NCBI GenBank assembly: GCA_017472965.1 | Contig: JAFUNR010000005.1 | Span: forward strand, 1 to 64,000 | Source of the DNA: Oscillospiraceae bacterium | Lineage (GTDB): Bacteria; Bacillota; Clostridia; Oscillospirales; Ruminococcaceae | Reading direction: 5' to 3' | DNA: 64,000 nucleotides | Part shown: positions 3,526-60,858 of the stretch, in pieces | Position numbering within the stretch: position 1 is the stretch's first letter | Layout: the number at the start of each line of letters is the position of its first letter | Translations under genes and position numbers: made by a program | Notes under the pieces: model-generated | Database searches by the model: none | What the model was told of the DNA's origin: nothing | The model's input: the letters and a program-made list of their open reading frames with translations, nothing else

Positions 3526-4978
3526 GGCTGCGCTCCTTTTGCAGTTTCCGACCGCTTCTGAACTTACCAATGTACCGATATATTCTTTCGATCGCCGAAG
3601 TATACAACAGCAGGAACACCGGAATCATATTGATCAAATAGCGGGACCGTGTTTCCCACACGAGCAGGAACAGGAAAATTCCCAGTACCGCCACACAGAG
3701 GCTCCAGTTCAGCTGATCTTTTGAAAATGCAGCTGCCAGCATGCCAAACGCCAGCAACAGCTGCACTCCTTTCATCACAAATCTGTAAATATAATACAAA
3801 TCGCCGTCTGAGGTAAACCATCGCTGAAGCACACCATCCTTCAGCGGGTCAATATTCAGCTTGTTCGGCACAAAATAAGTTCCGTCCGTCCATGTATAAC
3901 GGATTTTCCCAAAAAGGAACCGGAGATAGCCGCCGAAGGCATACTCTTTCAGACGGGTTTGTATCTCCTTCCAGTTGGCCGCCTCACGCTCTTCCACCGT
4001 TGCAAAAGAAGCAGAAAACATATGATCGTCCAAATTATATCCGCCAGTGCCTTTCAGCCCCATCATGATATAATGCGGGGTCGTCAGATGGTCATTTGAC
4101 AGCTCCGTCAAATCAATAACCCCGCTGTGCTGTTCCAAAGCGCCATACACCGCCACGGCCAGCAGCATGCTTATCACCGCTGCAAACAGATATTTCCAAA
4201 CCCTTTTTCCCTGCCAGAGAAGTGCACCGATCGCCAGGGCCAACGCCGGAACCAGACTGGTCGGCTTAATTTTGAATCCGACAAACAGCACTATGCCGGA
4301 TACCGCCGCAACCACAAATCTCCAACGACGCGGTATTTTTTCTTTGACATACAGAACGATTATGAACGCGCCAAAACTTGCAAACGGCATGGAAAGTGTA
4401 TCCGTATAAAAAATCGGAGCGCAGGTCAGCAGCGGAAGGAAGCACAGCACGCTGAACCCGAAAAAGGTACCTCTTTGCCACGAAAACCACAGATCTGCCG
4501 CAAGCATCAGCAACCCGCATCCCAGCACGATCGCTGCAATATTCAGCAGAATACCGGCCGCCAGAGGGCCAATCCCGAAAACAGAAAGCACTTTGAACGG
4601 GAACGCAAGGATCCATGCAAGGAAAAAGTTATTGTAACAGCTCATGAAGTATCCGTTTGTATAGGTCAGCCGCCCGTTTGTTGTGATATCCAGCACGCCC
4701 TGATACACCCGGCCAAAATCCCACGCCGGCTCCACTGCCAGCTGCCACGCAAGAACAGCCATGAACACTGTCTGCAGCAGGCAAAGAAGCACCTGCAAAC
4801 GGCGGCAGGTCGTATCACTGAGGGATTCTGTCAGGCGAAACAGCAAAACCGAAAGCACTGCTGCTGCTGCAGCAATGCCTGTTGTAAATGCCAGCTGACC
4901 ATCCACAAAAGTCAGCAAAATTACGACAAAAGCAGTAATAGCCATTCCCTGTGCGGCTTTTTTAAAAAAAACACCCAT
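3512..4978 (-). CDS. Multi-pass membrane protein, glycosyltransferase C-like
   Basis: An integral membrane protein of 488 aa with about eleven hydrophobic segments, beginning at residues 10-45 and running almost to the end. A large hydrophilic loop at residues ~270-370 includes FVPNKLNIDPLKDGVLQ. The pattern of many TM helices with an extracytoplasmic loop resembles lipid-linked-sugar glycosyltransferases (GT-C, ArnT/PMT-like), but I see no decisive DE/DD motif, so the function is open. The start at 4978 (MGVFFKKAAQG) has a GAGG site. Base composition looks visibly lower in GC than the neighbours, with AAA/TTT runs and less biased codons, suggesting relaxed selection or transfer. It overlaps the YqeG gene. 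Confidence 0.6.
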   Translation of the reverse strand: MGVFFKKAAQGMAITAFVVILLTFVDGQLAFTTGIAAAAAVLSVLLFRLTESLSDTTCRRLQVLLCLLQTVFMAVLAWQLAVEPAWDFGRVYQGVLDITTNGRLTYTNGYFMSCYNNFFLAWILAFPFKVLSVFGIGPLAAGILLNIAAIVLGCGLLMLAADLWFSWQRGTFFGFSVLCFLPLLTCAPIFYTDTLSMPFASFGAFIIVLYVKEKIPRRWRFVVAAVSGIVLFVGFKIKPTSLVPALALAIGALLWQGKRVWKYLFAAVISMLLAVAVYGALEQHSGVIDLTELSNDHLTTPHYIMMGLKGTGGYNLDDHMFSASFATVEEREAANWKEIQTRLKEYAFGGYLRFLFGKIRYTWTDGTYFVPNKLNIDPLKDGVLQRWFTSDGDLYYIYRFVMKGVQLLLAFGMLAAAFSKDQLNWSLCVAVLGIFLFLLVWETRSRYLINMIPVFLLLYTSAIERIYRYIGKFRSGRKLQKERSHACK

Positions 4979-5007
4979 TGTTTTCCTCACTTCATTATAC
5001 CGCAACA

Positions 5008-5043
5008 AAACAAAAAGGCGGGCCTTGGCAGACCCGCCTTTGT
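5008..5043 (-). terminator. Rho-independent terminator after rpsU
   Basis: On the minus strand a GC-rich stem (GGCGGGTC pairing with GGCCCGCC) is followed by TTTTTG. It lies 30 bp past the rpsU stop and separates rpsU from the membrane-protein operon. Confidence 0.85.
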
Positions 5044-5072
5044 TTGCGTTGGATGATACCCAACCCCGCCGC

Positions 5073-5249
5073 TCACTTATACTTGCGCTTGCGGGCAGCC
5101 TCGGACTTCTTCTTGCGCTTCACGGAAGGCTTCTCGTAATGCTCGCGCTTACGAACCTCGGCAAGAACTCCGGAGCGGGCGCAGGAACGCTTAAAGCGAC
5201 GCAGTGCGCTGTCCAGAGACTCGTTGTCCTTAACTCTGATTTCCGACAT
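5073..5249 (-). CDS. rpsU: 30S ribosomal protein S21
   Basis: A 58-residue basic protein starting [19 protein letters not shown] and ending in the lysine/arginine-rich tail [13 protein letters not shown]. This is full length for S21, which sits near the anti-Shine-Dalgarno region of 16S rRNA and aids initiation. The start is the ATG at 5249 with a GGGAGG site upstream. It stands alone between leuS and the terminator at 5008-5043. AT-rich DNA upstream of the start probably holds its promoter. Confidence 0.97.
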
Positions 5250-5367
5250 CTATATCCCTCCCTTAAAAGGAGTTTCGTTGTACAACACAACATTGGTATT
5301 ATAACCCATAATGCTCTGTATGTCAACAGAAAATTCCGAATATTTTTTGAAAATATCTGTAAAGGGA

Positions 5368-33049: not shown

Positions 33050-34294
33050 ATGTCTACCGCTTTCATCATCGCCGAGTATCACCCCTTCCACAACGGCCAC
33101 GCCCACATGGCCGCGCAGCTGCACGCCGCAGGCTATGATACCGTTGCCGCTGTGATGAGCGGCAATTTTGTGCAGCGCGGTACTCCTGCGTTGCTGCCGC
33201 AGCAGGTACGCGCCGCCGCCGCACTGGCGTGCGGGGTGGATCTTGTGCTGCAGCTGCCCTGCCGTACCGCCGCCGCCAGCGCCGGGCGCTTTGCCGCTGC
33301 CGGTGCTGCCGCCGCCGTTGCCGCGGGGGCGGATGTGCTTGCTTTCGGGGCGGAAACGCCGGATACCGCCGCACTGCGCACCGTCACCGCTGCACTGCGC
33401 AATGAGCGCTTTTCCGCCCTGCTGCGGGAAGCGCTGGACACCGGCGTGCCCTTCCACACCGCCCGTGCCGCCGCCGCCGAAACGCTCTGTCCCGGCGCTG
33501 CCGCGCTGCTGGCCACCCCGAACAACATCCTTGCCGTGGAATACATTGCCGCGCTGGAAGCCATGTCTGCCGCCGGCTGCCGTGTGCCTGAGGTGCTGCC
33601 GCTGCCGCGGCTGGGCGCAGCCCACGACGGAGCCCCCGCACAGGGCATTGCCAGCGCCAGCTGGCTGCGCGGCCAGCCTCTGCCGGTGTGGCGGGAATAT
33701 GTGCCGCAGGCCGCCTTCTCCCTGTATGAAAAGGCCTTTGCGGCAGGTCAGGTGCTGGATCTCGCCCGCTGGGAGCTGCTGGCGCAGGCTCTGCTGCGCA
33801 GCCGCAGCCGCGAGCAGCTGGCCGCCGCACCGGATGCTGCCGAAGGACTGGATGCGCTGCTGTACAGCGCCATCCGCGAAAACACCTCGCTGGAGGCTAT
33901 CTGCGCCGCCGTCAAGAGCAAACGGTACACGCTTTCCCGCGTGCGGCGGCTGGTGCTGGCCGCCGCGCTGGGATGGAGCGCGCCGGAGACCGGAGCCGCT
34001 GCGTTTACAGCCGCCAAAAGCCCCGCCGAGGCCTGTCTTGCCGCCGATCTGCCCTATTTGCGGGTACTGGGCGCAAATACAGCCGGCAAGCGGATGCTTT
34101 CCGCCATGGCGCAGACAGCTCCCATACCGGTGTCGCCCTCGCTGGCGGCGCTGGAGCGGCTGGGCGGCGCTGCAGCGCAGGCCGCACGGCGCGAGGCCGC
34201 TGCCGCCGATCTTTACGCTCTGTGTCTGCGGCAGCCGCAGCCCTGCGGACAGGAGTACCGGCTGCCATTTCTGACCGACACCGCCCTGCGGTAA
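33050..34294 (+). CDS. tmcAL: tRNA(Met) cytidine acetate ligase
   Basis: Uses acetate and ATP to form N4-acetylcytidine at the wobble position of elongator tRNA-Met. The 414-aa protein has the nucleotidyltransferase HxGH motif AEYHPFHNGHAHMAAQL and AVMSGNFVQRGTPAL, the TmcAL hallmarks. A long Ala-rich helical middle and C-terminal RNA-binding region (VKSKRYTLSRVRRLVLAAALG) follow. AAGGAG lies upstream of the ATG. It is divergent from ackA, whose product acetate is the substrate here, a suggestive but unproven link. Confidence 0.93.
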   Translation: MSTAFIIAEYHPFHNGHAHMAAQLHAAGYDTVAAVMSGNFVQRGTPALLPQQVRAAAALACGVDLVLQLPCRTAAASAGRFAAAGAAAAVAAGADVLAFGAETPDTAALRTVTAALRNERFSALLREALDTGVPFHTARAAAAETLCPGAAALLATPNNILAVEYIAALEAMSAAGCRVPEVLPLPRLGAAHDGAPAQGIASASWLRGQPLPVWREYVPQAAFSLYEKAFAAGQVLDLARWELLAQALLRSRSREQLAAAPDAAEGLDALLYSAIRENTSLEAICAAVKSKRYTLSRVRRLVLAAALGWSAPETGAAAFTAAKSPAEACLAADLPYLRVLGANTAGKRMLSAMAQTAPIPVSPSLAALERLGGAAAQAARREAAAADLYALCLRQPQPCGQEYRLPFLTDTALR

Positions 34295-41194: not shown

Positions 41195-41238
41195 GCTGCT
41201 GTGCTGCAATCAAACGGTACGCTTATCAGCAACGAAGG

Positions 41239-41420
41239 GCGTGTTGCAAAATGAAAATTTTACAACACGCCACACGCGAAATTCCGTTTCGCGTGTAAAT
41301 TCCGCAGGAATTTGCTGCAACATTTGATGATTTTGGCTCTGTAAGAGCCAAAATGGCGGCCACGCCTGGGCCGCCAAATCAAATTTGACGGAGCTGTTGC
41401 AATTTTGCAACAGCTCCGTC
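41239..41420. repeat. Cluster of six tandem inverted repeats after fucO
   Basis: Within 182 bp there are six palindromes: 41239-41270 (GCGTGTTG arms), 41272-41296 (perfect 10-bp ACACGCGAAA), 41297-41313 (AAATTCC/GGAATTT), 41330-41354 (perfect 11-bp ATTTTGGCTCT), 41355-41375 (GGCGGCC/GGCCGCC) and 41387-41420 (perfect 16-bp, core GACGGAGCTGTTGCAA). The last is followed by CTTCTTTT and can terminate fucO. The others are not explained by termination. It fills most of the 271-bp gap between convergent fucO and the GH36 gene. Confidence 0.85.
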
Positions 41421-41465
41421 CTTCTTTTATACGCTTTGCTTTTTCGCTATGCGGCACATACGGCT

Positions 41466-45738: not shown

Positions 45739-46467
45739 ATGCGAATGATCCTTGCCTGTCTGTATGCGGGCGCCGCCCTGCTCTATCTGTTTCCGCTGCA
45801 ATTGCGTGCCGTCTGGCTGAAAAAACACGGGCGTACTGAAGAATGCCGCCGTATCACCGATAAGTGGGTGCCCGTCTGGATGGGTACCATACTGCGCATC
45901 GGCGGGGTGCGGGTGGAGGTCTCCGGTCTGGAAAACCTGCCCGATTCCCCCGCGGTGTTCGTGTGCAACCACCAGAGTATGATCGATATTCCGGTGCTGC
46001 TCACCGCGCTGGGCCGCCCCCGCGCCCTGATGGCCAAAGCCGTGCTGAGCAGGATCCCGCTGCTGCGGGGCTGGATGCGGCTGTTTGACTGCATTTTTGT
46101 GCAGCGCAGCGACCCCAAAGAAGCACGGCGCTCCTATGAGGAGGGCGTGCGGCTGGTGAAGGCCGGCGGCGACCTGATCGTATTCCCCGAGGGCACCCGC
46201 TCCAGGGACGGCGAAATTCAGGAATTCAAGGCCGGCAGCTTCCGCATTGCCAGCACCAACGGTGTGCCCATTGTGCCGCTGCTCATCGACGGCAGCCGCT
46301 ATACACTGGAAGAAAACGGCTGTTGGATCTGCCCGGGCAAGGTATCGCTGCGGGTGTTTGCGCCCATTGACACCGCACAAATGAGCCGCGAGGAACTCAA
46401 AGCTCTGCCGGAAAGAATCCGCGCCCAGCTGACCGCCGCACTGAAGGAGATTCGCACCGCACAGTAA
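45739..46467 (+). CDS. plsC: 1-acyl-sn-glycerol-3-phosphate acyltransferase
   Basis: Acylates lysophosphatidic acid at the inner membrane face. The 242-aa protein has an N-terminal hydrophobic helix (residues 3-22), the catalytic NHQSMID (HxxxxD) near residue 75, the FVQRS block, the FPEGTRSRDG glycerol-phosphate motif and VPIVPLLIDGS. The start at 45739 has AAGGAGA upstream. The protein works downstream of PlsX, encoded at 15.7 kb. Confidence 0.93.
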   Translation: MRMILACLYAGAALLYLFPLQLRAVWLKKHGRTEECRRITDKWVPVWMGTILRIGGVRVEVSGLENLPDSPAVFVCNHQSMIDIPVLLTALGRPRALMAKAVLSRIPLLRGWMRLFDCIFVQRSDPKEARRSYEEGVRLVKAGGDLIVFPEGTRSRDGEIQEFKAGSFRIASTNGVPIVPLLIDGSRYTLEENGCWICPGKVSLRVFAPIDTAQMSREELKALPERIRAQLTAALKEIRTAQ

Positions 46468-46481
46468 AAAACGCATCGGAC

Positions 46482-46518
46482 ACCGCCGCCGGGCCTTACC
46501 GCCCCGCGGCGGTTTTTT
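46482..46518 (+). terminator. Terminator after plsC
   Basis: ACCGCCGC-C-GGG pairs with CCCCGCGGCGGT, followed by TTTTTT at 46513-46518. Confidence 0.85.
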
Positions 46519-46630
46519 GCGCTTTTGAAGATTTTCCGCACCCGGAAATGCGGTGATCCCTTCATTATTTATTCACAGAGTTTTAGCTGTTTCCTCACAC
46601 ATTCCATACAGATCCGCCACATTTTTTCCG

Positions 46631-47007
46631 TATAATAAAAGCCGTCAAAGGGGGAAGGCCCAGTGCCCGATCCCTTTTGGAGCCGGCAGCCGCCGGTTCA
46701 CAGCAATCCCTCAAAGTACCCATGCGAGGCCGTTTGGCCGGGTGCTTTGCGGCCATGGCGCGCAGGTCTCTGTGCGCGGCCGTAACTTATCCGCCGGCAA
46801 GGTGAAACGGAACGCGGCGCTCCCGCACTCCCACCGCCCCGGACCACCGGTTTCCTTTGCGCGGGAACGAGCTGCCCGCACAAAGTTCACATATTTCTTC
46901 CGCAAGAGTGTGTTCTTCGGAACAGATCATTTGCTGATTCTCCTCTTCTTTTCTTAAAACGGCAGCGGCGCATCCCCGCAAAAGGGATACGCCGCTGTTC
47001 GTTTTTT
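46631..47007 (+). ncRNA. Candidate structured non-coding RNA
   Basis: The 610-bp gap 46468-47077 has no credible protein. A TATAAT box (46631-46636) precedes a run of strong stem-loops: 46647-46677 (AAAGGG/CCCTTT), 46680-46699 (8 bp GAGCCGGC), 46712-46749 (10 bp CAAAGTACCC with an inner GGCC/GGCC), 46750-46782 (CGGCC plus GCGCGCAG arms) and 46855-46885 (CTTTG-GCGGG arms). A strong terminator follows at 46963-47007 (CAGCGGCG-ATCCC stem, then TTTTTT). The -35 is weak. I could not match tmRNA, RNase P, SRP or 6S hallmarks by eye. Strand is inferred from promoter and terminator. Confidence 0.55.
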
Positions 47008-47077
47008 ATGTCAGTCCGCCTTGCGGCAGTCCGCCGGAATACAGCCGAATGCCTTGACATCATGCAGTTCTTTCTTT

Positions 47078-47839
47078 TCAGCCGCCTTTTACCGAAGCGC
47101 AGTGCAGCGTTTCGCAGTGCACATCACCGCCCACATTGCCGCAGGTAACGCCATCACCCGCGCGCACACTGCCATCCACATCACCGCAGGTGACGCCGTC
47201 GCCGGCGGTCACATTGCCCGCGACGCTGCCCTGACAGTGGACACTGTCGCCGGCATCCACGCTGCCGCCGACCTCACCGCAGCGCACGCCATCGCCCGCA
47301 TGTACATTGCCGCTTACACTGCCGCAGTCCACACCGTCGCCGGCTGTCACATTGCCTGCCACATCGCCGCACACAGCACCGTCGCCGGCCTTGACATCGC
47401 CGTACACATTGCCGTGGATCTCCACGCCGAAATCGCTGGTCACACCGGCCACATCCCCCTGCAGCACGATGCGAAGCTCCTGCCGCTGACGGCTGTAACG
47501 CAGCAGCTGCAGATGGGAGAGCAGCGTATGTCCCTTACACACCACAGCGTACAGATTGCCGTCATCCGGCCAGGGCAGACCATCCATATAAAAGGGCTCC
47601 GGCTGCGGTACAGGCTCGGCAGGGGCCGCACGGCCGAACAACTCGTCAATGCTCACATCAAAGATCTCCGCGATGCGCGGCAGGAGCAGCACATCCGGAC
47701 AGGCAATGTCATTCTCCCATTTACTCACCGCCTGAAAGGTCACGCCCAGCTGCTCTGCCAGCTGTTCCTGCGTCATACACTGCGCCTTGCGCAGGGCACA
47801 GATCCGTGCACCGAGGGTGATGGTTTCGTTTTGTTCCAT
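47078..47839 (-). CDS. XRE-HTH protein with 15-residue Cys-containing repeats
   Basis: 253 aa. Residues 8-65 form an XRE helix-turn-helix (LAEQLGVTFQAVSKWENDIA), followed by a Pro-rich linker and a short strand-rich segment. From ~128 to 250 run about seven repeats of the pattern GxVxGxVxAGDGVxC, one Cys each. Such short Gly/Val repeats fit a right-handed beta-helix or bactofilin-like solenoid with a Cys ladder. DNA binding joined to a solenoid suggests oligomerisation, metal or redox sensing; this is inference. The repeats are visible as ~45-bp DNA repeats. The start at 47839 has AGGAGA upstream. Confidence 0.85.
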   Translation of the reverse strand: MEQNETITLGARICALRKAQCMTQEQLAEQLGVTFQAVSKWENDIACPDVLLLPRIAEIFDVSIDELFGRAAPAEPVPQPEPFYMDGLPWPDDGNLYAVVCKGHTLLSHLQLLRYSRQRQELRIVLQGDVAGVTSDFGVEIHGNVYGDVKAGDGAVCGDVAGNVTAGDGVDCGSVSGNVHAGDGVRCGEVGGSVDAGDSVHCQGSVAGNVTAGDGVTCGDVDGSVRAGDGVTCGNVGGDVHCETLHCASVKGG

Positions 47840-48020: not shown

Positions 48021-48830
48021 TTACAGGGTATCGGGACGGCGCAGATCACAGCCGACAGGCGCATCGAGCGCCATACTCCGTGGCATGATGAGGCAATCCA
48101 GCGCATGGATCTCCACACCGGCGGCAGCAGCCTGTACCACCGCCTCGCCAAAAGCGGCATGGGTAGCCCAGTTGGGAGAAAAGGTATGCACGCCCTTCAT
48201 CTGTATCACCACAAGGAGAACGGCTCGCCAGCCCTGTGCTGCCAGTGCAGCAAGTCCCTGCAGATGCTTTACGCCGCGCTGGGTGGGCGCATCCGGAAAG
48301 CGGGCGTGACCGTTCATTTCCAGCGTACAGCCCTTGACTTCGACTGCTACGGGGCGGCCATCCTGCTGCGCACAGAAATCAAAGCGGGAATCTCCCACCG
48401 TGCATTCGGGACGGATATTCTGCAGCGTGCCCAGCCCGCCGGCGGCCAGCCATTCGGCAGCGGCGGCATTGGGTGCGGCGGAATCCATATTGATGAGCAG
48501 CGCCGGCCCGGCCGGCACCGCAGGCGCGATCCACTCGCGTCCGTCCGTATCGGTACAGCGCACCTCCGGCAAAGCCTCTGCCGCAATGCTGCCCGGGCGG
48601 GTATCCTGCGGCGGCAGGCGTTTTTCCACACACACCAGATCGCAGGGCGTGCTGCGGGCGGGGTTTGTGCTGTATTCCAGCCAGACCCGCACACCCGGGC
48701 GCAGCAGCTCGGCACAGCGGCCCGTATTTTTCACATGGACACGCTCCAATGTTCCCTCCCGCCACACCAGCGCAATGAACCGGTTGGGCCGCGCCAGAAA
48801 CCGCGCGGGGCGGATATCGTGATACTGCAT
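48021..48830 (-). CDS. sfsA: SfsA family DNA/RNA nuclease-fold protein
   Basis: A 269-aa SfsA protein. An N-terminal OB-like half (RPNRFIALVWREGTLERVHVKNTGRCAELL) precedes a PD-(D/E)XK-type half with DSRFDFCAQQDGRPVAVEVKGCTL. Further conserved blocks are FPDAPTQRGVKHLQGL and LIMPRSM. E. coli SfsA was named as a sugar-fermentation stimulation gene and binds DNA; the physiological role is uncertain. It begins 13 bp after the stop of the rRNA methylase gene, forming a pair. Confidence 0.93.
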   Translation of the reverse strand: MQYHDIRPARFLARPNRFIALVWREGTLERVHVKNTGRCAELLRPGVRVWLEYSTNPARSTPCDLVCVEKRLPPQDTRPGSIAAEALPEVRCTDTDGREWIAPAVPAGPALLINMDSAAPNAAAAEWLAAGGLGTLQNIRPECTVGDSRFDFCAQQDGRPVAVEVKGCTLEMNGHARFPDAPTQRGVKHLQGLAALAAQGWRAVLLVVIQMKGVHTFSPNWATHAAFGEAVVQAAAAGVEIHALDCLIMPRSMALDAPVGCDLRRPDTL

Positions 48831-48842
48831 CGCTTTCTCCGT

Positions 48843-50219
48843 TCATTTCAGATTACGCAGGCCCTTGGGATAATGATTTTTCACCCGTCCGCCGCTGATC
48901 TTGCCTGCTCCCAGTGCAAAACCGTCCACGCATACGGCGCACCAGCCGCTGCCCGCTGTGCGGGCCTCGATCTCCTCACCACGCAGGTAGGCGGCGGTGC
49001 GGGGGTCGGCGGCAGTCAGCTCCTCGCGGTTGGCGCACTGAGCACCAAAGGCATGCATCAGGTGATGCGCCGGTGTAAAGCGATCCTTTTCCACACTGCC
49101 CAGCTGCACACCGCAGCGCACCAGATGCAGACCCGCCAGCGAAGGCAGCGGCTGCACAGGCGGCAGGTAGTAGGATTCCTTGAACTGCTGCAGCGGCCGG
49201 TCGAGCAGCTGCGGGAACAGCTGCCGCAAAAAATCCTGCAGCTGTTTGGGTACTTTGGCTGGGCGGGGTGCGGGATACATCGCCGCAGGCTGTGCTGCAC
49301 CCGAACGGCGCAGCTTCGCCACAAAATGACCCTCGCCGCCGTGACAGGGATAGATGCGGCGCACTTTGCTCACATCAATGGCGCCGTTCACACAGTGGCT
49401 CTCGTGCCCCGGGCAGCCGCAGGAAAGGCCGGTATCGATCAGCTCAAAATCCGGATGGGCCGCAAGAAATGCGCCGATCTGGCCCTCATCCTCCTGCGGG
49501 GAAAAGGTGCAGGTGGAATACACCAGCTCACCCCCCGGTGCAACGCAGCGGGCGGCGGCATCCAGGATCTCTGCCTGCAGCGCGGCACACTGCTCCACCA
49601 GCGCCTCGCTGTGCTGGGTGACAGCCTGCGGCTCCTTGCGGAACATTCCCTCGCCGGAGCAGGGGGCATCCACCAGCACTTTATTGAAATAACCGGCAAA
49701 GCACTGTGCCAGCCGCGGCACGCTGTCATTGGTGACGACCACATTGGGCGCACCCATGCGCTCGATGTTGGAAAGCAGAATGCGGCTGCGTGCGGCGTCA
49801 AACTCATTGCTGACCAGCACGCCGCTGCCCTGCAGTGCGGCAGACAGCTGGGCACTTTTGCCGCCGGGTGCGGCGCAGGCATCCAGCACGCGGTCACCGG
49901 GGTGCACATCCAGTGCCGCAGCGGCAGTGGATGCCGAAGGCTCCTGTCCGTAATAGACCCCGGCATGATGCCACGGGTGCAGTCCCGGACGGGCATCCGG
50001 CTGTACCAGACGGAAATTGGCACAGGCAAAGCCGCCCGCTGTCAGTGCAAAAGGCGGCGCGGCGGCGAATTCCTGTGCAGGCAGCAGACGGGTGTTGACC
50101 GTCACCCCGCGCACGGGGACTTCTTCCGCATACTGAAAAAGCTGATCGGCCTTTTCCCCCAGCAGCGCCTGTGTACGCTGCCAGAAATAGCTGTCCGAAG
50201 AAAGAGATGGATGGGACAT
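48843..50219 (-). CDS. NOL1/NOP2/Sun-family rRNA m5C methyltransferase (RsmF/YebU-like)
   Basis: A 458-aa SAM-dependent enzyme. The SAM-binding core is VLDACAAPGGKSAQLSAAL. The two catalytic cysteines are in LVDAPCSGEGMFRKE and LVYSTCTFSPQEDEGQ. The C-terminal extension (~300-458) with VKNHYPKGLRNLK resembles the PUA-like RNA-binding tail of RsmF proteins. The target cytosine is probably in 16S rRNA but cannot be read from sequence. The start at 50219 (MSHPSLSSDSYFW) has AAAGGAG upstream. Confidence 0.92.
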   Translation of the reverse strand: MSHPSLSSDSYFWQRTQALLGEKADQLFQYAEEVPVRGVTVNTRLLPAQEFAAAPPFALTAGGFACANFRLVQPDARPGLHPWHHAGVYYGQEPSASTAAAALDVHPGDRVLDACAAPGGKSAQLSAALQGSGVLVSNEFDAARSRILLSNIERMGAPNVVVTNDSVPRLAQCFAGYFNKVLVDAPCSGEGMFRKEPQAVTQHSEALVEQCAALQAEILDAAARCVAPGGELVYSTCTFSPQEDEGQIGAFLAAHPDFELIDTGLSCGCPGHESHCVNGAIDVSKVRRIYPCHGGEGHFVAKLRRSGAAQPAAMYPAPRPAKVPKQLQDFLRQLFPQLLDRPLQQFKESYYLPPVQPLPSLAGLHLVRCGVQLGSVEKDRFTPAHHLMHAFGAQCANREELTAADPRTAAYLRGEEIEARTAGSGWCAVCVDGFALGAGKISGGRVKNHYPKGLRNLK

Positions 50220-50348
50220 ACAAACTCCTTTCGGCGTGTATAACCGCCGCAAAAGCTGCAGATACTAGAACCGACGGAGCCGGAATACCGGCTTCGCCGC
50301 CGAATTGCACGAGGCGTGCGCGAATAAATTGATTTGGAGGATCTGACC

Positions 50349-50489
50349 ATGAGCGAGAACCGCAACACCAAGAATGCCAAAAATACCCGTACCGGCCGCA
50401 GCTGCAATGAGAGCAGCCAGTCTCAGTCCAAGCAGACCAACGAGAACAGCCGCTCTGAAAACACCCAGAACAACCGTTCCTCCCGCTGA
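50349..50489 (+). CDS. 46-aa Asn/Ser/Arg-rich small protein
   Basis: A short gene missed by length filters: ATG at 50349, TTTGGAGGATC upstream, stop TGA at 50487-50489. The product starts MSENRNTKNAKNTRTGRSC and ends NNRSSR, with Asn, Ser, Arg and Gln dominating, no hydrophobic core and one Cys. Similar disordered Asn/Ser-rich small proteins are common and unannotated in gut Clostridia (recall only). A spore or stress role is possible but unproven. It is flanked by hairpins and a terminator, so it is monocistronic. Confidence 0.75.
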   Translation: MSENRNTKNAKNTRTGRSCNESSQSQSKQTNENSRSENTQNNRSSR

Positions 50490-50531
50490 CGGGACGGAGC
50501 TGCCATAGGCGGCAGCTTCGTACATATACGC

Positions 50532-50572
50532 AAAAGAGCCGCCGCAGTTGAAAATTGCGGCAGCTCTTTTTC
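50532..50572. terminator. Bidirectional terminator
   Basis: AAGAGC-C-GCCGCA pairs with TGCGGC-A-GCTCTT, followed by TTTTTC on plus and TTTTG on minus. It separates the small protein gene from convergent mrnC. Confidence 0.9.
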
Positions 50573-50574
50573 AT

Positions 50575-51000
50575 TCAGTTCTGCTGCGCGGCATCGTGCG
50601 CTTCGGCCAGAGTCTGCCAGATGACATCGAACAACTCCAGAATGCGCTGCTGCCGGTTCTGCAGGTACAGCCAGCCAAACAGGGATTCCAGTGCGGTGGA
50701 AGCGGTATATTCCTCCCGGGTGGCATTCTTGGAAACACTTGCTTTTTCGGCGTTGCGGCCCCGGCGCACCACGCCGGCCTCCTGTTCGGTAAGCAGCGGC
50801 TCGATGGCATGCAGACCGGCGGCCTGATGACGGGCACTGACATAGCCCACCGTCATGGTGTGCAGCTTCTGCAGCGGCAGACGGGTGGTCTCCACCGCAC
50901 GCTGCCGCACCAGCAGCTCAAACACACCGTCGCCCACAAATGCCAGTGCCAGCGGTGACTGCTCGCGGATATCAAATTGGCTGTGCGTTTCAAACAGCAT
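50575..51000 (-). CDS. mrnC: Mini-ribonuclease III
   Basis: A 141-aa RNase III catalytic domain without dsRBD, used for 23S rRNA maturation in Bacillota. Features are SPLALAFVGDGVFELLVRQR, KLHTMTVGYVSARHQAAGL, RRGRNAEKASVSKNATREEY and the second acidic block ALESLFGWLYLQ. It normally lies after cysS; here it follows obgE by 11 bp and probably shares its transcript. Confidence 0.95.
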   Translation of the reverse strand: MLFETHSQFDIREQSPLALAFVGDGVFELLVRQRAVETTRLPLQKLHTMTVGYVSARHQAAGLHAIEPLLTEQEAGVVRRGRNAEKASVSKNATREEYTASTALESLFGWLYLQNRQQRILELFDVIWQTLAEAHDAAQQN

Positions 51001-51011
51001 GACGGGACCTC

Positions 51012-52280
51012 TTAGAACACGTAATCGAACTGGAACTCACCGATGCAGATGGTATCATCCTCTTCGACACCCTGACGCACCAGTTCATCCAGCACACCGC
51101 TGTCGGCCAACTGCCGCTGGAAATACTGCAGGCTCTCGTAGTCCTCCACATCGCTGCCCTCCAGAATGCGCTCCAGCCAAGGAGCCTCCACGCTGAAGAC
51201 ATGATCCTCCAGCTTGGTGACGGTGAAGCGTGCACCGTCGGCATTCAGCTCGGGCTTGACATAGTTCACCTCGAAGGAACCGACTTCCGGCAGAGTGCGC
51301 AGCACAGAGTAGACCGTGCCGGGCAGAGAATCCAGCCCCCTGCGGGTGGCAGCGCTGATGGGCATGAAGGTCAGGCCCTGCTCCTCAATAAAGGCGCGGA
51401 ATTCCTCCACCTGCTCGGGCGTGGCGATATCGCACTTGTTGCCCAGCACCAGCTGCGGGCGTGCGGCCAGCACGGGGCTGAAGCGCTCCAGCTCCTGATT
51501 GATCTTTTCAAAATCGTCTTTGGGATCCCGGCCCTCGCAGCCGGAGACATCCACCACATGCAGCAGCATGCGGCAGCGCTCCACATGGCGCAGGAAATCG
51601 TGGCCCAGACCGATGCCGTCGGAAGCACCCTCGATCAGGCCGGGGATATCGGCAGCCACAAAGCTGGCCTGCTCATCCACACGCACCACGCCCAGCACGG
51701 GGGAAAGGGTGGTGAAGTGGTAATTGGCGATCTTGGGACGCGCGGCACTGATGACGGACAGGATGGTGCTTTTGCCCACATTGGGAAAGCCGATCAGACC
51801 CACATCGGCGATCAGCTTCAGCTCCAGCTGCACTTCATATTCCTCGCCGGGCAGACCGGGCTTGGCAAAGCGGGGGATCTGACGGGTGGGGCTGGCAAAA
51901 TGCACATTGCCCCAGCCGCCGCGACCTCCTTTGGCCACCACCACCGGCTCATCGCCGGAGATATCAGCCATGACCGCACCGGTGGTCACCTCGCGGATGA
52001 CGGTGCCCTTCGGCACACGGATGACCAGCGGCTCAGCATTTTTACCGAAGCAGCGATTGCCGCGGCCGTTTTCGCCTGCGGGGGCCTGATACTTGGTTTT
52101 GTAGCGGAAATCCATCAGGGTGGACAGGTTGGGATCCGCCACAAAGATCACGTCGCCGCCGCGGCCGCCGTCGCCGCCATCGGGGCCGCCCGCCGCCACA
52201 TATTTTTCACGGCGGAAGGAAACCGCGCCGTCGCCGCCGCGGCCGGCCTTGATGCGGATCTTTGCAATATCGACAAACAT
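51012..52280 (-). CDS. obgE: GTPase ObgE
   Basis: A large GTPase for late 50S assembly and stress signalling. The 422-aa protein has the glycine-rich Obg fold (MFVDIAKIRIKAGRGGDGAV, then GGPDGGDGGRGGDVIF). The G domain has GFPNVGKSTILSVISAA, DIPGLIEGASDGIGLG and NKCDIA. A C-terminal OCT domain ends DTICIGEFQFDYVF. The start at 52280 has AGAAAGGA upstream. It follows rplU-rpmA beyond an internal terminator, so it has either read-through or its own promoter. Confidence 0.97.
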   Translation of the reverse strand: MFVDIAKIRIKAGRGGDGAVSFRREKYVAAGGPDGGDGGRGGDVIFVADPNLSTLMDFRYKTKYQAPAGENGRGNRCFGKNAEPLVIRVPKGTVIREVTTGAVMADISGDEPVVVAKGGRGGWGNVHFASPTRQIPRFAKPGLPGEEYEVQLELKLIADVGLIGFPNVGKSTILSVISAARPKIANYHFTTLSPVLGVVRVDEQASFVAADIPGLIEGASDGIGLGHDFLRHVERCRMLLHVVDVSGCEGRDPKDDFEKINQELERFSPVLAARPQLVLGNKCDIATPEQVEEFRAFIEEQGLTFMPISAATRRGLDSLPGTVYSVLRTLPEVGSFEVNYVKPELNADGARFTVTKLEDHVFSVEAPWLERILEGSDVEDYESLQYFQRQLADSGVLDELVRQGVEEDDTICIGEFQFDYVF

Positions 52281-52366
52281 AGCTTGTAAATCCTTTCTGG
52301 CCGCAGCCGCCCTTTTACAGAAAGTCTGCGGTGTTCTGACCGGAATATGCACCGGTCGCGGTCTCG

Positions 52367-52403
52367 AAAAAAATAGGGCAAACCGCGCTGGCGGCTTGCC
52401 CTA
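52367..52403 (-). terminator. Terminator between rpmA and obgE
   Basis: TAGGGCAAACCGC/GCGGCTTGCCCTA stem (52374-52386 with 52391-52403) followed on the minus strand by TTTTTTT. It is strong enough to uncouple obgE from the ribosomal genes. Confidence 0.92.
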
Positions 52404-52410
52404 CCGTTTT

Positions 52411-52662
52411 TTACTGCATGACGCTGACTTTCTTACGGTCGCGGCCACTGCGCTCGAACTTCACGGTACCATCGACCAGAGCGAACAGAGTATCGTCGCT
52501 GCCACGGCCAACATTCTCACCCGGATGGATGTGAGTGCCGCGCTGACGGACCAGGATGTTGCCGGCCAGAACGAACTGACCATCGGCGCGCTTAACGCCC
52601 AGACGCTTGGACTCGGAATCGCGGCCGTTCTTGGTAGAACCTACACCTTTTTTATGTGCCAT
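52411..52662 (-). CDS. rpmA: 50S ribosomal protein L27
   Basis: An 83-aa protein starting [20 protein letters not shown], placing the flexible N-terminal tail directly at the start. Most Bacillota L27 carry a short N-terminal extension removed by the protease Prp. No extension is present, and no prp gene lies between rplU and rpmA. The start at 52662 has GGAGG upstream. Confidence 0.97.
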
Positions 52663-52683
52663 ATCTGTTACACCTCCGCTCGA

Positions 52684-53759: not shown

Positions 53760-53795
53760 GTGTGGGCCTTCCGGCAGCTCGCAAAACAAAAATTC

Positions 53796-53839
53796 CTAAA
53801 AACTCTCCGGTACGGCATTCCAGCCTGCGCCGGAGAGTT
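53796..53839 (-). terminator. Terminator of the chromate transporter operon
   Basis: AACTCTCCGG/CCGGAGAGTT (53801-53810 with 53830-53839) followed on the minus strand by TTTTTAGGAATTTTTG. Confidence 0.85.
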
Positions 53840-53854
53840 CTTATGTACAGAAAA

Positions 53855-54424
53855 CTATACTGTCAGTGCGCCGCTTGCCCACTGCCACACGAGCCACAGC
53901 GCACCGCTTGCAAAAATGACCAGAATGGGACTGGTTTTACGGATGCGCAGCAGCAAAAAGGCGGCCAGAATGATCACAGGTCTGACCCATGAAAAGCCGG
54001 CTGCCGCCCCTTGCGAAAGCCCCAGCGCCCCCAGAGTGATGGTGAGTGCCGCACCCGCGATCAGCGCGACTGTGGCAGGGCGCAGGGTGCTCAGAACCGT
54101 CTGCAGGCCGCGGCTCTGGCCGTAGCGGCGGTACAGCACCGAAAGCACCAGCACGATGCAGCATCCGGGCAGAATGCTGCCCAGCGTGGCAAGCAGCGCA
54201 CCGGGTACACCTGCCACACGGATCCCCACAAAGGTGGCTGCATTGATGGCGATGGGGCCGGGGGTCATCTCGGCAATGGTGATAAGATCGGTAAATTCGC
54301 TCAGGGTAAGCCAGCTGTGTCGCACCACCACCTGATCCTGGATCAGCGGGATGGCAGCATAGCCGCCGCCGATGCTCAGCAATCCGATCTGCAGAAAGCT
54401 GAGCAGAAGCTCCAGATAGATCAT
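53855..54424 (-). CDS. Chromate transporter half (CHR domain), second subunit
   Basis: A 189-aa CHR-domain membrane protein with the block SIGGGYAAIPLIQDQVVVR, the EMTPGPIAINAATFVG motif and five to six TM helices. Short-chain CHR proteins function as pairs of opposite topology. The start at 54424 overlaps the stop of the first half by 4 bp (ATGA). Despite the name, many clostridial pairs are not shown to export chromate. Confidence 0.88.
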   Translation of the reverse strand: MIYLELLLSFLQIGLLSIGGGYAAIPLIQDQVVVRHSWLTLSEFTDLITIAEMTPGPIAINAATFVGIRVAGVPGALLATLGSILPGCCIVLVLSVLYRRYGQSRGLQTVLSTLRPATVALIAGAALTITLGALGLSQGAAAGFSWVRPVIILAAFLLLRIRKTSPILVIFASGALWLVWQWASGALTV

Positions 54425-59908: not shown

Positions 59909-60858
59909 GCGGGCTTGCCCTCCTTTTTGCGGGGCTGACGCTTCACACCCAGAGGCCGCTGACGGATACCGCGGTTGATGTAGGGCGTGACGATGTTCAT
60001 CAGCAGGATGGCATAGGACATCCCCTCCGGAGAGGTGCCGTAGAAGCGGATCAGGCAGGTGATGACACCGATGCCGATGCCGTAGATCAGCTTGCCCCAG
60101 CTGGTGTAGGGCGAGGTGACATAATCGGTGGCCATGAAGAACGCGCCCAGCAGCAGACCGCCGGAAAGCAGCTGCAGAAGGATCTCGTCCGGACGGCCGC
60201 ACACAAGGCACATCACCGCAACGGTGGCCAGTGTGGAGACGGGGATCACAGCGGAGATGGTACCGCTGAAGATCAGATACAGACCGCCCAGCAGCAGCGC
60301 AACGGCGCAGGTCTCGCCCAGAACGCCGCCGTGGGTGCCCAGCAGTTGCTCGACAACGGGGGTGCTGAACATCTTATCCGCAGCCGCCAGCGGGGTGGCG
60401 GAGGCCAGCGCATCGATGCCCACATCGGGGTAGCGGTAGGAGGTCATCTCGGTGGTAAAGCTGAGAGCCAGCACGATGCGGGCCACGATGGCGGGGTTGG
60501 CAAAGTTGAAGCCGATGCCGCCGAACAGCTGCTTGACGATGATGATGGCGATCAGATCGCCGATGATGAGCATCCACACCGGAAAATCCACCGGCACATT
60601 GAAAGCCAGCAGGATACCGGTGACCACAGCGGAAAGATCGCCGATGGTCTGCTCTTTTTTCATGATGATATTCCACAGAGCCTCAAAGCCCACACAGGCA
60701 GCGGCACTGACAGCGGTCAGGAACAGGCTTTCCCAGCCGAAGATCAGGCAGGAGGCGATCAGCGCGGGCAGACAGGCGATGCACACCTGTCCCATCAGCT
60801 TCGCCGTGGAGATCTTTTCATGAATGTGGGGTGCGGTGGTGACGAGCAGCTTACGCAT
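59905..60858 (-). CDS. rnfD: Rnf complex subunit RnfD (FMN-binding)
   Basis: A 317-aa membrane subunit with eight to nine TM helices. The flavinylation motif is SATPLAAADKM, where the Thr would bind FMN. Other blocks are GGIGFNFANPAIVARI and AFFMATDYVTSPYTSWGKLI. The start is in a TGATG overlap with the rnfC stop. Confidence 0.96.
   Translation of the reverse strand: MRKLLVTTAPHIHEKISTAKLMGQVCIACLPALIASCLIFGWESLFLTAVSAAACVGFEALWNIIMKKEQTIGDLSAVVTGILLAFNVPVDFPVWMLIIGDLIAIIIVKQLFGGIGFNFANPAIVARIVLALSFTTEMTSYRYPDVGIDALASATPLAAADKMFSTPVVEQLLGTHGGVLGETCAVALLLGGLYLIFSGTISAVIPVSTLATVAVMCLVCGRPDEILLQLLSGGLLLGAFFMATDYVTSPYTSWGKLIYGIGIGVITCLIRFYGTSPEGMSYAILLMNIVTPYINRGIRQRPLGVKRQPRKKEGKPA

Follow-up and report, generated by a model that had tools for sequence, protein, structure and literature searches.

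Does the 610-bp intergenic gap at 46468–47077, which lies between a plsC-like gene and a convergent gene for an HTH protein, specify a small RNA, or is it merely spacer DNA? The question was raised by a sequence-only reading of the window (the whole stretch of 64,000 nucleotides of Oscillospiraceae DNA analysed here), in which the gap was taken for the longest in the window and for the site of a highly structured non-coding RNA framed by a promoter and a terminator. The length of the gap was given correctly. Its rank is doubtful, as three larger gaps (1797, 661 and 646 bp) appear in our rough gene call, which is based on codon usage and may have left unscored genes in them. Seven ORFs tested in these gaps (3571–5367, 53760–54420 and 60212–60857) gave no Pfam match above cut-off.

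To the reading that we prefer we would give about an even chance: the gap encodes a standalone small RNA, some 365 nt long and restricted to its lineage, a predicted transcript in which a CU-rich tract is the likely working part. We infer that transcription of the + strand would be initiated near 46642, as judged from the position of the −10 box, and would proceed to the terminator at about 47007. The 5′ part of the transcript would fold into four stable hairpins, and the single-stranded CU-rich tract ahead of the terminator would pair, in antisense fashion, with the purine-rich Shine-Dalgarno sites of mRNAs, blocking ribosome binding. The features involved are collected in Table 1.

Table 1. 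Features of the gap and of the genes that flank it (positions are those of the window)
Feature	Position	Strand	Basis
plsC-like acyltransferase gene	45739–46467	+	Pfam Acyltransferase match
Intrinsic terminator of the plsC-like gene, stem-loop then T6	46489–46520	+	Consensus scan
Perfect TATAAT −10 box, without recognisable −35	46631–46636	+	Sequence match
GC-rich block (0.66) with AT-rich flanks, beginning just past the −10 box	46642–46890	+	Base composition
Hairpin 1, 9-bp stem and inner GGC/GCC	46646–46679	+	MFE and centroid
Hairpin 2, 8 bp, tetraloop	46680–46699	+	MFE and centroid
Possible multibranch domain, closing helix CAGCAA/UUGCUG (46701–46706 with 46931–46936)	46701–46936	+	Predicted fold
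Hairpin 3, stem of 10 bp including a G-U pair, GGCC/GGCC stem nested within	46712–46749	+	MFE and centroid
Hairpin 4	46750–46782	+	MFE and centroid
47-aa frame with good Shine-Dalgarno site, probably chance	46787–46930	−	ORF and duplex energy
Pyrimidine tract predicted to be single-stranded, unpaired with a mean probability of 0.98	46937–46955	+	Predicted fold
Bidirectional intrinsic terminator, T6 on + side, T4 on − side	46956–47007	+	Folds of both strands
Convergent HTH gene	47078–47839	−	HTH_3 above cut-off; Bactofilin match below cut-off

The Bactofilin match of the convergent gene product (26.3 bits against a cut-off of 27.9) falls in a repeat region which follows the XRE-type HTH domain. 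Of the matches listed from 148 family genomes, only the one in genome G031 is a near full-length relative of this protein, with 39% identity.

The base composition of the gap is uneven. The GC values are 0.40 in 46521–46641, 0.66 in 46642–46890 and 0.375 in 46886–46957, and the jump from 0.40 to 0.66 coincides with the predicted start, which we count in favour of the small RNA. As a point against it, GC-rich blocks of equal strength are present in four other gaps of the rough gene call, two of which are overlain by longer reading frames.

Hairpins 1–4 form in the MFE and centroid structures alike, with small shifts between the two. The design claimed for hairpin 3 was borne out, the structure being present in the MFE and nine of its ten outer pairs being kept in the centroid; the segment which contains it, 46708–46785, has a z-score of −4.1 on the + strand (0/200 shuffles) and −2.78 on the − strand (1/200). 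Inside the possible multibranch domain only hairpins 3 and 4 are well supported. As a unit the 5′ block (46646–46785) beats all of 1000 shuffles on the + strand (z −3.96), while its reverse complement is ordinary (z −1.42, 81/1000 shuffles), which favours an RNA read from the + strand. This block was picked after folding; a run of 200 shuffles returned z −3.28 (2/200), and 46642–46791 scored −5.1 in a sliding scan that used only 16 shuffles. The raw energy of the 5′ block is −73.5; 250 segments taken from the window and matched for GC average −53.8 (sd 6.0), and none of them is as stable, two having a z-score of −3.3 or lower. The GC-rich block as a whole is less extreme (z −2.42 on the + strand, 1/250 shuffles; −0.33 on the − strand, 88/250). 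The description of the locus as highly structured consequently holds for hairpins 1–4 (46646–46782) and fails for 46786–46955, where z is −1.01 and 36/200 shuffles are as stable.

Much of the fold significance of the whole region is contributed by the terminator. The complete 367-nt stretch scores −5.17 on the + strand and −3.97 on its reverse complement (0/80 shuffles each), both strands being significant because the terminator folds on both; once the terminator is removed the values are −2.75 (1/80 shuffles as stable) and −1.12 (13/80). These figures bring in the main alternative, namely that the gap is an ordinary spacer in which GC-rich DNA folds by chance between the terminators of convergent genes, any RNA being read-through from plsC. 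We regard this as a serious contender, at somewhat less than an even chance. The share of the terminator in the z-score speaks for it, as does the finding that 120-nt segments between the two terminators do not go beyond a z-score of about −2.9 on the + strand, yet such a spacer would hardly be expected to hold a 5′ block more stable than every one of its shuffles on one strand only.

In an unbiased scan of 850 segments 46642–46791 ranked sixth on the + strand and 258th on the − strand. The five placed higher are two segments that carry evident terminators (56992 and 38992, both +), one with a row of perfect hairpins (41242, −), one from a stretch where no gene was called (3742, −) and one antisense to a called gene (33142, −). 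When the best segments of 21 gaps are compared, gap 46468–47077 comes third, owing to its terminator. Two other structures in the window deserve mention. The segment 33142–33291 (−), antisense to the called gene 33050–34294 (+), folds with −80.6 kcal/mol (z −5.3, 16 shuffles), and a 271-bp gap at 41195–41465 is packed with long perfect hairpins, strong on both strands (z −9.2 for 41315–41434, +), and looks like a cluster of terminators.

The strong intrinsic terminator announced by the sequence-only reading is present, with its hairpin at 46956–47005 and T6 at 47002–47007, even though a simple consensus scan missed it and listed the plsC terminator alone (1.5 expected by chance). The candidate RNA has in it a terminator of its own, which may instead serve the convergent gene. 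Since plsC has a separate terminator upstream, a transcript initiated between the two, where the TATAAT lies, would be the simplest account of the U6 terminator. For the spacer this + side feature is awkward, since its distance past the plsC terminator exceeds 400 bp and no client is obvious on that strand.

The other end of the frame was only half right. A TATAAT does precede the hairpins, but it has no −35 partner: the best hexamer 14–20 nt away matches at only three of six positions, and a consensus promoter scan found none on the + strand and one on the − strand (46648–46621). When the dinucleotides of the gap are shuffled and the + strand alone is counted, the hexamer arises in 54 of 2000 sequences; in the 64-kb window it occurs 20 times, counting both strands. 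A promoter belonging to the candidate RNA may be predicted from this one hexamer, and the missing −35 is a point for the spacer.

The tract proposed as the working part is predicted to be exposed, and its reverse complement is a purine tract resembling a Shine-Dalgarno sequence. Paired with the 55 gene starts of the window it gives a mean duplex energy of −8.78, compared with −7.91 for shuffled tracts (12/300 as low). Taken singly, its best pairing with a gene start is unremarkable, being equalled by 52/300 shuffled tracts, and a run of 18 pyrimidines or purines turns up in 43/2000 shuffles of the gap. Any target specificity is putative, and many other CU-rich sequences would pair likewise.

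One would wish to see such an RNA in related bacteria. Blastn in 100 genomes returned the own copy only, and blastn of 46600–47010 against phages and plasmids returned nothing useful. A one-sequence covariance model of 140 nt (R1) was run, with stricter filters throughout, against three overlapping sets: 297 family genomes, 41 relatives and 394 genomes of the order. In the first it matched at E ≤1 in seven genomes including the own. The strongest foreign hit, in G134, has E 6.0e-4 on a single-genome basis and is a terminator-type hairpin which covers half of the model. It was rejected, as were the other four of the five foreign alignments inspected (out of six), which are scattered and mismatched. 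The 41 relatives yielded the own genome alone; the order yielded three matches at E ≤0.05, the own included, and the two foreign ones (E 0.011 and 0.017) were compared by blastn only. R1 E-values hold per single genome, so that such figures are expected by chance. Exact 19-base patterns were found in six contigs of unrelated taxa and otherwise in none or in one viral contig, the matches being 19–25 bases long; a plsC pattern gave 41 matches in GTDB genome contigs and no relative; and 38 loci gathered in the relative searches, with the own copies excluded, gave a best E of 0.13 in a blastn comparison with the RNA. The locus, which the sequence-only reading had proposed to look for in related genomes, therefore has no convincing homologue by blastn or R1 in the sets searched.

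Gene order was compared in two genomes. In G001, the sole genome of the same genus in the 100-genome list, there is no match to plsC or ksgA; its contig C14 keeps the side of the window at 48159–52663, and the blastn match ends in sfsA and is followed by other genes, so that gene order is broken here and the locus is not comparable. G025 keeps ksgA (68% identity) and plsC (47% identity), after which stands another gene that we read from its translation as cheW-like, and the contig concerned has no R1 match. The want of conservation and these two gene orders count for the spacer, while the lack of a copy in relatives would fit a young RNA as well as no RNA at all.

Nor did the RNA match an Rfam family. 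At the gathering cut-offs of Rfam 15 the whole 64-kb window has no match, a permissive scan of 46470–47100 gave five matches with E of at least 0.26, each under its cut-off, and ARAGORN found neither tRNA nor tmRNA genes in the window. The covariance-model comparison advised for this locus has thus matched no Rfam family, and the earlier remark that it is not recognisable as tmRNA, 6S, RNase P or SRP RNA stands, for RNase P and SRP RNA by the Rfam scans only. The identity with 6S RNA (RF00013) was rejected on the absence of an Rfam match at the locus and on shape, a row of hairpins instead of a bulged rod. The only RF00013 match of the genome at E ≤0.001 is on another contig (L083, G000:C8:23607–23801); it stays below the cut-off (32 bits, 46.4 required) and may be the genome's own, divergent 6S RNA. 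The locus was not named in a limited literature search. It seems to us unlikely that the RNA represents a new class, large, GC-rich, with many hairpins and so far seen in one species, in which the structured 5′ domain would act independently, for instance in protein binding, besides the CU tract.

There remains the coding potential of the gap. All eight frames scored are negative by codon usage, whereas the 55 roughly called genes average +0.36 per codon with a minimum of +0.13, and a Pfam scan of three of the eight frames gave no match; the candidate RNA contains no coding frame on these measures, in agreement with what had been claimed. It is very unlikely, in our estimate, that 46787–46930 on the − strand is a gene for a small protein (47 aa) which is cotranscribed with the HTH gene, the terminator hairpin acting between both. 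Its Shine-Dalgarno site, 9 nt ahead of the ATG, has a duplex energy of −9.0, and of the four other pyrimidine runs of at least 17 in the window two are ribosome sites of − strand genes; against this, a comparable frame (at least 40 aa, ATG) occurs in 23/300 shuffles of the gap, the codon score, taken for the longer frame which encloses it, is negative, and NCBIfam, PDB, phages and plasmids gave no match. Matches at E ≤1 occur in 118 of 297 family genomes, the own included, and the best foreign one (E 0.0018) has an internal stop and is at chance level for so many genomes. The frame is probably a product of chance, without a convincing relative.

Hardly credible is a leader in which AAAGGGGG, resembling a Shine-Dalgarno sequence, precedes a GTG at 46663 that starts a peptide of 40 aa, the translation of which would switch hairpin 1 and the terminator, 46670–46679 being able to pair with the terminator loop and 3′ arm (46979–46988): the ribosome pairing of AAAGGGGG is strong (−10.9) and the long-range complementarity of 15/19 is equalled by 0/60 shuffles, but the codon score of the frame is negative, the convergent gene comes next after the terminator, leaving no + strand gene to be controlled, and the pairing of 5′ end and terminator was rejected as energetically unlikely, costing 16 kcal/mol when forced (−142.8 versus −159.2).

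The non-coding RNA of the sequence-only reading is in sum a plausible and unproven candidate, partly supported and ordinary in kind: the blank in Rfam, the codon scores and the strand bias of the 5′ part fit an RNA that ends in the terminator, and the comparison with other genomes gave no convincing homologue. To our knowledge few small RNAs, by estimate, have been mapped in this lineage. If the gap is transcribed, one orphan small RNA would be added to it and the general picture would be unchanged.

Among known systems 6S RNA, common in Firmicutes, is likewise a standalone RNA; it takes the shape of one long bulged rod, unlike the separate hairpins in a row of the candidate. Gram-positive bacteria also possess intergenic trans-acting small RNAs whose seed regions are rich in C and U, such as RNAIII, RsaE and LhrC. 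In general layout, as distinct from exact motifs, the candidate resembles these in being a standalone intergenic unit with hairpins, an exposed CU-rich stretch and an intrinsic terminator; it differs from them in having no Rfam match, an assumed seed and no target shown. Structured RNAs favour intergenic regions that are long and GC-rich, a tendency clearest where the GC content of the genome is strongly biased, and the GC-IGR pipeline goes on from there to comparative sequence analysis (PMC8632094). The GC content of the window is 0.59. Whereas that pipeline is comparative, our candidate is known from a single sequence; what it has in common with the structured RNAs described there is a long gap containing a GC-rich block.
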